Shown one piece after another: positions 1-3,009 of a DNA stretch of 64,000 bases; the stretch's first letter is position 1; the number at the start of each line of letters is the position of its first letter. Under the pieces are notes generated by a model. The model saw nothing but the letters and a program-made list of their open reading frames with translations. It had not been told where the DNA came from and did not search any database. The DNA comes from Epilithonimonas zeae. GTDB taxonomy: Bacteria > Bacteroidota > Bacteroidia > Flavobacteriales > Weeksellaceae. A program made the translations under genes and the position numbers. The DNA is taken from the NCBI RefSeq assembly GCF_900141765.1, contig NZ_FSRK01000001.1, positions 1,860,001 to 1,924,000 of the forward strand, in the 5' to 3' direction.

Positions 1-637
1 AATCATTATGGTTAATATCGGCTGTTAATGTGAATGAATCGGAAATCCGGTAACCTAAATTAAGACTTTGAATATGCCTTCCATAGCCTTTCTTCTTCCA
101 ATCATAATCCTTACCAACAGTTTCTTCTTGAAGAGAAGCATTGATAGTAACCTTTTTTTGATAATTTTTTTTAGTAATAATATTGATAACACCTGCCATT
201 GCATTATTACCATATTCTACGCCCATAGCACCTTTTACAATTTCTATTCGCTCTATATTATTGACATTAATTTTTGTAAGATCTACCAAATTCCCCATTC
301 CTTTATCGCTAACTACAGGAATATTATCAATCAATATCTTTGTATATTCCCCGCTGAGTCCCATAATATTTGCATTAGAATCTCCAGAACTAGAATTGGG
401 GGTAATCAAAATGTTTAGATTTTGGTTAAGGACATCTGCCACATTTGTAGCAGCCATATTTTTGATTTGGATTGCATCTATTATTTCTACTTTATAAATA
501 GATTTATTGATAGACTGGGGAGTATATTGTCCAGTAATGACGACTTCTTCAATATTTTTTTGATTAAGAGTATCCTTTTGTGCATATGCAAAATTCAAAA
601 TCGCTAATGATAAAAGGCTCATCGTTCGCTTCTTCAT
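1..637 (-). CDS. TonB-dependent receptor, N-terminal part (cut by left edge)
   Basis: An open frame runs leftward from an ATG at 637 and leaves the window without a stop, so about 212 residues are visible. It begins with a short signal peptide (MKKRTMSLLSLAILNFAYAQ). A TonB-box-like stretch (EEVVITGQ) follows, then a plug domain with the typical signatures of this family: ADVLNQ, a GLSGEYTKILIDNIPV segment, VNNIERIEIVKG and a GVINIITKK end. The start of the outer-membrane barrel follows. Such receptors import siderophores, haem, vitamin B12 or sugars using TonB energy. There is no carboxypeptidase-like N-terminal extension, which resembles BtuB/HmuR-type receptors more than SusC. It is divergent from two T9SS genes, the second HmuY-like, so haem or iron uptake is the favoured inference. 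The substrate itself cannot be read from this part. Confidence 0.9.
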   Translation of the reverse strand, partial: MKKRTMSLLSLAILNFAYAQKDTLNQKNIEEVVITGQYTPQSINKSIYKVEIIDAIQIKNMAATNVADVLNQNLNILITPNSSSGDSNANIMGLSGEYTKILIDNIPVVSDKGMGNLVDLTKINVNNIERIEIVKGAMGVEYGNNAMAGVINIITKKNYQKKVTINASLQEETVGKDYDWKKKGYGRHIQSLNLGYRISDSFTLTADINHND

Positions 638-652
638 TGAAAAAAATTTTTG

Positions 653-683
653 CGAAGATAAGATTTTATTTAGAATCATTAAA
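653..683 (-). promoter_or_regulatory. Putative promoter and imperfect operator of the TonB receptor
   Basis: On the minus strand, TATCTTCG (653-660) matches the Bacteroidota -7 box TAnnTTTG at 7 of 8 positions. Just upstream, 671-683 (TAGAATCATTAAA on the plus strand) matches the palindrome TAGAATnATTCTA found at the two divergent genes except at two positions. This suggests shared control of the receptor but is weaker than the other two sites. Confidence 0.4.
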
Positions 684-693
684 AACAATTTTG

Positions 694-714
694 TACTTTT
701 GTAGAATAATTCTA
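694..714 (+). promoter_or_regulatory. -7 promoter box fused to a 6-1-6 palindrome (Fur-family-like operator)
   Basis: TACTTTTG at 694-701 is a perfect match to the Bacteroidota -7 box TAnnTTTG. It is followed directly by the perfect inverted repeat TAGAAT-A-ATTCTA at 702-714. The repeat covers the expected transcription start, where a bound repressor would block RNA polymerase. Its geometry resembles the 7-1-7 sites of Fur/PerR-type regulators. The regulator identity is inferred from the HmuY-like and TonB-receptor neighbours. An almost identical arrangement lies at 1678-1698. Confidence 0.65.
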
Positions 715-741
715 AATAATAATAAAATCTGAACAAGACTT

Positions 742-1533
742 ATGAAAGCAAAACTACTTCTAGCTGCATCACTTTTCGCAGTAGTTGCACAAGCACAATT
801 ATCGACTATTAATGAAAACTTTGACGGATTTACAGCTGGAAATGCAACCTTTCCTCAAAACGGCTGGTCAGCAATTTTACCAACAGCTCCTTTCCCGCCA
901 CAACCTATGATGCTAGTTGTAGCTGCAGATGGAGCAAACAAGGTAATCCAAGCTTATCCTGGAAGCAGCTCGAACCAACCATTATACTTAATAACACCTC
1001 AGATTGTAGCGCCTGCTGGAGATAAGGCTATTTCTTTTGACACTGGTTTGGTAGCTTCTTCGCCTGGTACTACAACCATTCAGATTGGTGTAGCGACCAA
1101 TCCAGCGGATATGACAACGTTTACAGCTGTTGGAGATCCAATACAAATCACTTCTACTGTGATTCAGAATGTTAAGGTTAATGTACCTGCATCTGCTGGA
1201 ACTTATCTTGTTATAAAACATACCCCTACTGCAGCGCACACGGCTCTACAAATCGACAATGTAAAGTATGATACTAACCTAGCTGTTAATGAAAGCGCTT
1301 TCAACACAAATAATGTAAAATTTGCAGTTTCTGCAGATAATAACTCTTTGAAGTTTGTTTCTACAACTACGCTTTCTAGCGCAAAAATCTATTCTGCTGC
1401 TGGACAGATTGCAACTGAAGGTAAAATTTCAAACAACACTTTAAACATTTCTACATTGAAATCCGGTGTTTATTTTATTGCTATAGAAGACAATGCTGGA
1501 CAAACAGTTAAGTCTAAGTTTATTAAAAAGTAA
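742..1533 (+). CDS. T9SS-secreted adhesin-like protein
   Basis: 263 residues. A signal peptide (MKAKLLLAASLFAVVAQAQ) is followed by a beta-rich domain opening with NENFDGF and, later, NGW. This is the usual start of choice-of-anchor J / cleaved-adhesin type domains. The last ~75 residues form a T9SS type A sorting domain (AKIYSAAGQIATEG, then LKSGVYFIAIED, ending FIKK), so the protein should be exported through the type IX system and attached to the surface or released. The ligand is unknown. The gene is divergent from a TonB receptor and 190 bp before an HmuY-like gene. It shares the latter's promoter/palindrome, so co-expression under iron or haem limitation is inferred. Its own terminator follows at 1557. 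Confidence 0.85.
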   Translation: MKAKLLLAASLFAVVAQAQLSTINENFDGFTAGNATFPQNGWSAILPTAPFPPQPMMLVVAADGANKVIQAYPGSSSNQPLYLITPQIVAPAGDKAISFDTGLVASSPGTTTIQIGVATNPADMTTFTAVGDPIQITSTVIQNVKVNVPASAGTYLVIKHTPTAAHTALQIDNVKYDTNLAVNESAFNTNNVKFAVSADNNSLKFVSTTTLSSAKIYSAAGQIATEGKISNNTLNISTLKSGVYFIAIEDNAGQTVKSKFIKK

Positions 1534-1556
1534 ATAAACTCATTTATAAAAATTGA

Positions 1557-1587
1557 AAGCCTTTCAGAATTCTGAAAGGCTTTTTTT
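1557..1587 (+). terminator. Rho-independent terminator
   Basis: A perfect inverted repeat with 13-bp arms (AAGCCTTTCAGAA and its complement, 1557-1582) runs directly into seven T residues. It closes transcription of the adhesin-like gene and separates it from the next promoter. Confidence 0.9.
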
Positions 1588-1677
1588 GTTGATTATAAAG
1601 ACGATTTAAACCAATATGATATTTATCATTTGATCAAAAATATTAATTTTTAATAATTCTAAATAAGAATAATTTAA

Positions 1678-1698
1678 TAGTTTTGTAGAATAATTCTA
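1678..1698 (+). promoter_or_regulatory. -7 promoter box fused to the same 6-1-6 palindrome
   Basis: TAGTTTTG (1678-1685) is a perfect TAnnTTTG box and is followed at once by TAGAATAATTCTA (1686-1698). The flanking bases also match those at 698-731, apart from a 3-base indel. A degenerate extra copy (AAGAATAATTTAA, around 1665-1677) lies just upstream, which would allow co-operative binding. The match of both box and operator in two neighbouring genes argues for joint control. Confidence 0.65.
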
Positions 1699-1722: not shown

Positions 1723-3009
1723 ATGAAAACAAAACTATTTTTTGCAAGTATGCTGACACTGGCTGTTAGCCAAACAGTTTTATCGCAAACAGATGAATTC
1801 GGGTATACTTCGGTTAATCTAAGTATGGGCGCTCAATATCAAAATCAAGTTTATTTTGATTTCTCTTCTAACAATATTATTTCACAGCCTGCTACAGGAT
1901 GGGATATTGCTTTTTACAGAAATTCTAGTATGTCGTTTGGAGAGAGAGTAAATGATGCTAATAATGTGAAAGTTTATCAGGTTTCTGCTGATCCTGTCGC
2001 GTTTGACACTGTAGTTCCGGGAGATAAAGCTAACTGGGGCGAGCCATTATACAATCCTGACAAAACTGAAGCTTTGGAAGATGGCGTCTTCGACAATGCA
2101 ACATTATTGCCATCAGGGGGTCTTAATTTCAGCTGGGGAACTTATGACATCACCACACACAAAATTACAGGTAAAGTAGTTTTCGTACTAGAATATGGTA
2201 ATGGAGATTATTACAAATTCTTTATTAATGAATACTCTGCTGGATATACATTCAAATATGCCAAATGGAACGGAAGCTCTTGGGATGCAACACAAACCAG
2301 AACTATTGCTAGTGGAACAGATGATGCATACTTCAACTATTTCTCGTTCGCAACAGGAGCAAAAGTTAATAATATCGAGCCTCCAAAAGCAAATTGGGAT
2401 CTGATGTTCACAAGATACTGGACTTTCTATAACAATATTATGATGTATCTGATGTCCGGAACAATCCAATCTCCAAATGTGAGTGTTGCATACGTAAGAC
2501 CAGAAACTCAGGCTACTTCTACCTATACAGCTCCTGCAAGCAGTTCTTACTCTAAAGAAATTACTACTATTGGTCACTCTTGGAAAGGAACAACAGGATC
2601 ATATACAGATGCAGTTTATTACGTAAAAGAAGGAAGTAACTATTACAGAATGTATTTCACTTCCAATGGCGGTGCTACTACAGGTAATATGTATTTCAAA
2701 TATAAAAACATCACGGGAGAACTTGCTGTTGCAGACTTTGGTAAAAAGGGAACATTCGGAATTTATCCAAACCCAACTAAAGAAGACAAAAAAGTTAACA
2801 TCTTGTTTGATGTAAAAGAAGCAGCTTTTAAGAACGGAAGCATTGAAGTATTTGATTTCTCTGGTAAAAAAGTATATGAAACTTCTATTATAAACAAGTC
2901 AGGATTCTCTACACAACAAGTTGATCTTAATAGACTTTCGTCAGGAGTTTATGTCGTGAAAATCACTTATGGAGGACAGACAGAAACAAAAAAGCTTGTC
3001 GTAAAATAA
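1723..3009 (+). CDS. HmuY-like protein with T9SS sorting domain
   Basis: 428 residues. A signal peptide ends near VLSQ (residue 22) and has no lipobox cysteine. The body carries features I associate with the HmuY haem-binding family: VYFDFSS then GWDIAFYRN (43-67), AYFNYFSFATGAKV (202-215), PKANWDLMFTRYW (221-233) and IGHSWKG (283-289) followed by YYVKEGSNYYRMYFTS. From about residue 343 (GTFGIYPNPT) to the end is a T9SS type A sorting domain. Known HmuY proteins are outer-membrane lipoproteins that bind haem and pass it to a TonB receptor. Here export would be by type IX secretion instead. The neighbouring TonB receptor and the operator-like palindrome fit haem or iron acquisition. Haem-ligating residues could not be assigned by eye. 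Confidence 0.8.
   Translation: MKTKLFFASMLTLAVSQTVLSQTDEFGYTSVNLSMGAQYQNQVYFDFSSNNIISQPATGWDIAFYRNSSMSFGERVNDANNVKVYQVSADPVAFDTVVPGDKANWGEPLYNPDKTEALEDGVFDNATLLPSGGLNFSWGTYDITTHKITGKVVFVLEYGNGDYYKFFINEYSAGYTFKYAKWNGSSWDATQTRTIASGTDDAYFNYFSFATGAKVNNIEPPKANWDLMFTRYWTFYNNIMMYLMSGTIQSPNVSVAYVRPETQATSTYTAPASSSYSKEITTIGHSWKGTTGSYTDAVYYVKEGSNYYRMYFTSNGGATTGNMYFKYKNITGELAVADFGKKGTFGIYPNPTKEDKKVNILFDVKEAAFKNGSIEVFDFSGKKVYETSIINKSGFSTQQVDLNRLSSGVYVVKITYGGQTETKKLVVK

Follow-up and report, generated by a model that had tools for sequence, protein, structure and literature searches.

Which regulator reads the palindrome that stands before two T9SS genes and beside a TonB-dependent receptor gene in Epilithonimonas zeae? 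The window, by which we mean the whole 64-kb stretch of DNA analysed (from a 4.08-Mb genome), holds the following genes and predicted control elements at this locus:

1–637, minus strand: 5′ part of the TonB-dependent receptor gene (ATG at 637–635; 709 aa, extending past the window edge), heading the haem operon
653–660, minus strand: predicted −7 element of the receptor gene, TATCTTCG (plus-strand letters CGAAGATA), one mismatch to TAnnTTTG
669–685, no strand: box 2, TTTAGAATCATTAAAAA, predicted Fur operator common to two divergent promoters, 8 bp from each −7 element
694–701, plus strand: predicted −7 element of the adhesin-like gene, TACTTTTG, with the Bacteroidota consensus TAnnTTTG
700–716, no strand: box 1, TGTAGAATAATTCTAAA, predicted Fur operator over the predicted start site (core palindrome 702–714), overlapping the end of the −7 element
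742–1533, plus strand: secreted T9SS protein of 263 aa with a Por_Secre_tail and a predicted jelly-roll fold (model pLDDT 84.7; Foldseek)
1647–1663, no strand: second box of the HmuY promoter, TTTTTAATAATTCTAAA, 14 bp before the −7 element and the counterpart of box 2
1678–1685, plus strand: predicted −7 element of the HmuY gene, TAGTTTTG (TAnnTTTG)
1684–1700, no strand: box 1 of the HmuY promoter, TGTAGAATAATTCTAAA, predicted operator (core 1686–1698)
1723–3009, plus strand: HmuY-domain protein of 428 aa with a T9SS sorting tail (PF14064, E 4e-8; PF18962, E 5e-15)

The Palindrome Overlaps Both T9SS Promoters

A sequence-only reading of the window had reported a −7 motif followed directly by a palindrome at two places. 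Both lie where it put them, TACTTTTG with TAGAATAATTCTA at 694–714 and TAGTTTTG with TAGAATAATTCTA at 1678–1698, in near-identical flanks that differ by a 3-base indel. Each palindrome adjoins TAnnTTTG, and its core ends 27 bp (gene at 742) or 24 bp (gene at 1723) before the ATG, placing both box 1 operators across the promoter and within ~100 bp of the start codon. A further copy, TAGAATCATTAAA at 671–683, does carry the two mismatches described for it; far from being a weak stray copy, it is the core of a second predicted operator, which is strongly conserved and common to the divergent promoters. Two features had been overlooked: the full 17-mer at 669–685 around this core, 8 bp from the −7 elements on both sides, and the box at 1647–1663 upstream of the HmuY-like gene. 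The −7 elements that flank 669–685 stand back to back, and with a gap of exactly 8 bp on either side a single operator can act on the receptor and the T9SS gene alike. A terminator-like hairpin and its T run (AAAGCCTTTCAGAATTCTGAAAGGCTTTTTTT, 1555–1588) lie between the adhesin-like gene and the HmuY gene, in keeping with separate transcripts.

How unusual is the palindrome? The exact 13-mer TAGAATNATTCTA occurs twice in the window and once more in the genome, before a ferredoxin-reductase-like gene. From the dinucleotide composition of the window, ~0.015 copies are expected per 64 kb and ~0.9 per 4.08 Mb; since the reversed control pattern occurs at 2 places, the genome-wide count of 3 is by itself unremarkable. 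The probability of finding one 13-mer in both adjacent 100-bp upstream regions is, by contrast with that count, very small (p ~3e-9, local composition). Copies with one mismatch are at background (33 versus 31 controls) and the majority lie inside genes; we therefore dropped a genome-wide regulon built on them.

The Boxes Match the Riemerella Fur Box

The palindrome had been proposed as a repressor operator with Fur-type 7-1-7 geometry, and comparison with Riemerella anatipestifer sustains both points. According to the available text of PMC5609570, the Fur box of that species is ATTTAGAATTATTCTAAAT, with binding by EMSA and an effect of fur deletion on expression. The abstract of the same paper gives the box as GATAATGATAATCATTATC, which the accessible part of PMC7976709 repeats, and ATTTAGAATTATTCTAAAT is the form derived in its results. 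On a variant box at rhuB, R. anatipestifer Fur bound with a Kd of 4.3 nM in EMSA (PMC10986502), and PMC11967795 describes the analogous haem promoter with its Fur box mutated. We found that TAGAATNATTCTA matches the core of ATTTAGAATTATTCTAAAT. Against the 16 specified bases of the inverted repeat TTTAGAATNATTCTAAA, box 1 has one mismatch and box 2 has two, and box 2 differs from the published R. anatipestifer RAYM_00450 box in the centre only.

The cognate regulator is conserved as well. We took as reference an R. anatipestifer genome with an exact EMSA-primer match, whose fur gene has four exact matches to the knock-out primers. The Fur encoded on C3 of the window genome is 77.6% identical to this protein and lies among the same neighbours, as an orthologue would; the DNA-binding helix is near-identical, with KKYHVSKATIYN[S/T]IEIFLDAGLIRKHQFGEK common to both. 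Three further FUR-family proteins are encoded in the window genome, and they are the main uncertainty about the identity of the regulator. Two similar FUR-family paralogues carry CKICKQTTC (L157:655-1077, 141 aa; L158:708-1127, 140 aa). The gene on L157 adjoins a heavy-metal P-type ATPase-like gene, and its product may be Zur-like. A literature search for Chryseobacterium and "Fur box" returned a single unrelated review, and one for Chryseobacterium and HmuY returned nothing relevant by title and abstract.

The Two-Box Layout Is Conserved across the Family

In 197 genomes of the family Weeksellaceae, the composite TANNTTTGTAGAATNATTCTA has 53 occurrences, spread over 44 genomes, and its control has none. 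Among 34 sites that we read, 32 lie directly before a HmuY-T9SS or adhesin-like gene; the remaining two, at L130 and L142, fall next to the receptor inside a 310-aa frame on the expected strand, which we read as the adhesin-like gene with an overlong start. The more general arrangement of a box, 8 bp and TAnnTTTG gave ~149 matches (a hand count from the match table) in 83 of the same genomes, spanning 11 genera, whereas the reversed pattern gave 6. A single such site, 669–701, is present in the window genome. Among the 30 loci read, wherever a downstream gene could be called it belonged to this haem locus or was TonB receptor-like. In other genera, the arrangement precedes genes for TonB receptors, an HmuY-T9SS protein, AraC regulators and ankyrin-repeat proteins (the last two at L228, L232, L235 and L236 and at L229, L230, L231 and L233); one site stands 185 bp from a hisG-like gene, perhaps by chance. 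In genus g23, which gene order suggests is Elizabethkingia-like, a box 8 bp before TAATATTG heads the haem ABC operon.

The spacing is constant as well. Of 47 orthologous HmuY promoters, 45 have box 1 after TAnnTTTG, the exceptions being L064, with half a box, and L074, with none; the distance between the two boxes is 31 bp in 32 of 33 divergent promoters. The second box of the HmuY promoter lies 8 bp from the −7 element in most relatives, versus 14 bp in the window. Where relatives have a consensus TAnnTTTG for the receptor on the minus strand, it starts 16 bp before box 2; in the clade of the window genome this element is degenerate. Some loci depart from this layout: (i) in nine species the intergenic region is wider, with box 2 at both promoters and no box 1 at the middle gene; and (ii) at four loci (L031, L033, L035 and L075) the middle gene is missing, and the divergent pair consists of HmuY and the receptor. 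Expanded divergent regions at L042, L047, L049, L050, L051, L055, L056 and L070, where the receptor and middle-gene promoters stand apart, contain GATAATGATAA-like repeats reminiscent of the hexamers in Fur sites of the E. coli type. At L047, L055, L056 and L070 the middle gene encodes 426–431 aa versus ~265, with a C-terminal end that differs as if fused or replaced.

The Boxes Probably Control a Haem-Acquisition Locus

Are the downstream genes linked to iron? The receptor (Plug domain, E 3e-20) is followed on the minus strand, outside the window, by genes for a HmuY lipoprotein, a periplasmic binding protein, a FecCD permease, a haem ABC ATPase (NF010068, above the NCBIfam cutoff), a methyltransferase-like protein and a HemS/ChuX protein. 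With HmuY, a TonB receptor, a haem ABC transporter and HemS, the gene content is that of a locus for haem uptake. In the window genome (L155:4770-5414) and in genus g23 (L190:10361-11011) alike, the methyltransferase-like gene is flanked by those for the haem ABC ATPase and HemS. In E. anophelis, low iron strongly raises expression of the hemin-degrading and permease genes, which are numbered as if ordered as in the g23 haem operon (PMC7221216). By comparison, the haem regulon proposed from the window holds up and extends past its edge, to the HmuY, haem-ABC and HemS operon. The exact palindrome marks essentially one locus and not a broad regulon, and it is not scattered widely without a tie to iron genes.

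The 1723–3009 product matches the HmuY Pfam family at 33.8 bits, above the curated cutoff of 27, and is 97% identical to an Epilithonimonas arachidiradicis protein. Its H146 and H285 are kept in 98–100% of 46 orthologues, which is only a hint of haem binding. In the 742–1533 product we found no Pfam domain beyond the T9SS tail. Its model resembles the cleaved-adhesin domains of gingipains, with Lys-gingipain (Kgp) of Porphyromonas gingivalis as the match (4itc, TM 0.70 by target length, Foldseek). Unlike the Kgp domains, the protein stands alone, identity to them is 14–18%, and jelly rolls of the carbohydrate-binding CBM4 and MAM types reach similar scores, so the likeness in fold need not mean a common function. 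All of its orthologues keep H166. Binding of haem or haemoglobin by this protein is a suggestion only.

One other gene is likely a second Fur target. The third copy of the 13-mer is part of a perfect 17-mer, TTTAGAATCATTCTAAA (G000:C3, 88796–88812), ~44 bp before a ferredoxin/thioredoxin-reductase-like gene (L160:2057-3106) that lies beside a 2Fe-2S-ferredoxin-like gene, and the box, reductase-like and ferredoxin-like arrangement recurs in many species of the genus. Recognisable boxes elsewhere in the window genome are few; thus the Fur sites of other iron genes are more degenerate or absent.

What Do the Boxes Do?

FUR-family binding sites share the 7-1-7 form. With three more FUR-family genes in the genome, a PerR- or Zur-like protein could therefore bind the boxes and make the genes answer to peroxide or zinc instead of iron. 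We consider this quite unlikely, as it is Fur that binds and uses the same motif in R. anatipestifer, the orthologue of that Fur is the C3 protein and none of the other three, and the genes downstream serve haem uptake. Nor need a regulator be involved at all if an AT-rich genome had produced a palindrome by chance and a duplication had copied it along with its promoter, the two promoters being nearly identical. The conservation footprint already argues decisively against this reading, to which we give next to no weight: the palindrome is kept at a fixed spacing in dozens of species, and 940 shuffled upstream regions yielded no proximal box with two mismatches or fewer. Hardly more credible is an RNA hairpin in the 5′ leader. 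Box 1 is palindromic and within the predicted leader, but the predicted folds (−1.5 and −1.1 kcal/mol) are no better than those of shuffles, and box 2 lies upstream of the forward start site; we dropped this reading for want of a stable predicted fold.

Could box 2 instead be mainly an extended −33 promoter element, leaving box 1 as the sole repressor site? It sits where the −33 region of either promoter is expected, and no other stretch is as well conserved; part of this conservation may reflect the −33 region. Yet its letters match a published Fur box and lack the usual TTG, and it occurs in both orientations at equal distance from the −7 element, which fits the site of a dimeric protein better than a directional promoter element. 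That nine species keep box 2 alone at the middle gene also speaks for an operator, although a core element would fit too and the point is not decisive. We regard a mainly promoter role as improbable, if less so than the other alternatives. The palindromes are thus very probably Fur operators at a haem-acquisition locus.

From the observed sites, spacing, conservation, gene content and orthologous Fur, we infer Fur binding, the start sites, an iron response and haem binding in E. zeae. With ample iron, Fe2+-Fur dimers would occupy box 1, which covers the predicted start site at both T9SS genes, as well as box 2, upstream of the −7 element. Occupied 669–685, midway between the back-to-back −7 elements, would block the receptor operon and the adhesin-like gene together. 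Iron starvation would free Fur from the operators, and the resulting derepression would let the cell make the receptor, the HmuY lipoprotein, the haem ABC transporter, HemS, the secreted HmuY and the secreted adhesin-like protein together, a co-expressed set that would serve haem capture at the surface.

This reading would widen the range of the Riemerella Fur box to Chryseobacterium and Epilithonimonas. It also yields a rule for the search for Fur targets (a 17-bp box, 8 bp, TAnnTTTG), usable in a family of which few regulators have been mapped, and it makes the two secreted proteins, one of them of unassigned function, candidate iron-regulated haem-capture factors.

Comparison with Known Systems

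The operator type is already known; its symmetric, shared layout at a haem locus does not appear in the portions of the literature on related systems available to us. Flavobacterium psychrophilum hfpR-hfpY pairs a receptor with a HmuY-type haemophore, as the window locus does; in the accessible text of PMC9331221 it is iron-repressed, Fur control is only proposed and a two-box divergent layout is not mentioned. T9SS secretion of HmuY is itself known from Flavobacterium columnare, where, in the available part of PMC9618737, the protein combines a HmuY domain with a Por_Secre_tail as here, in a different genus and at a different locus, with no mention there of a Fur box.

The closest likeness is to rhuH and rhuR-rhuA of R. 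anatipestifer, as far as the available text of PMC5609570 and PMC11967795 describes them: the same motif, an orthologous Fur, and a divergent promoter that sets a TonB haem receptor and a HmuY-type gene against a gene for a secreted protein. Over its first 197 residues our receptor shares only 31% identity with RhuR, which makes the loci analogues and not clear orthologues. The secreted partner differs too, being RhuH in R. anatipestifer and an unrelated T9SS adhesin-like protein here. BLASTP gave no match between RhuH and the 742–1533 product, which led us to reject homology, and a search with the first 120 residues of RhuH found no homologue in the window genome. It is possible, though we hold it only tentatively, that the single Fur operator 8 bp from both −7 elements forms one switch and that the jelly-roll T9SS protein replaces RhuH, as a new haem- or haemoglobin-capturing family of Chryseobacterium and Epilithonimonas. 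Finally, the two boxes are 46 bp apart in R. anatipestifer versus 31 here. Besides the published box, its rhuR promoter has a Fur-like sequence, TTTTTAACAATTCTAAA (L182:6984-7000), 8 bp from the −7 element TAGATTTG; it is absent from the Fur-box accounts in the available parts of PMC5609570 and PMC11967795, and it suggests that the rhuR promoter, too, may have a second Fur box.
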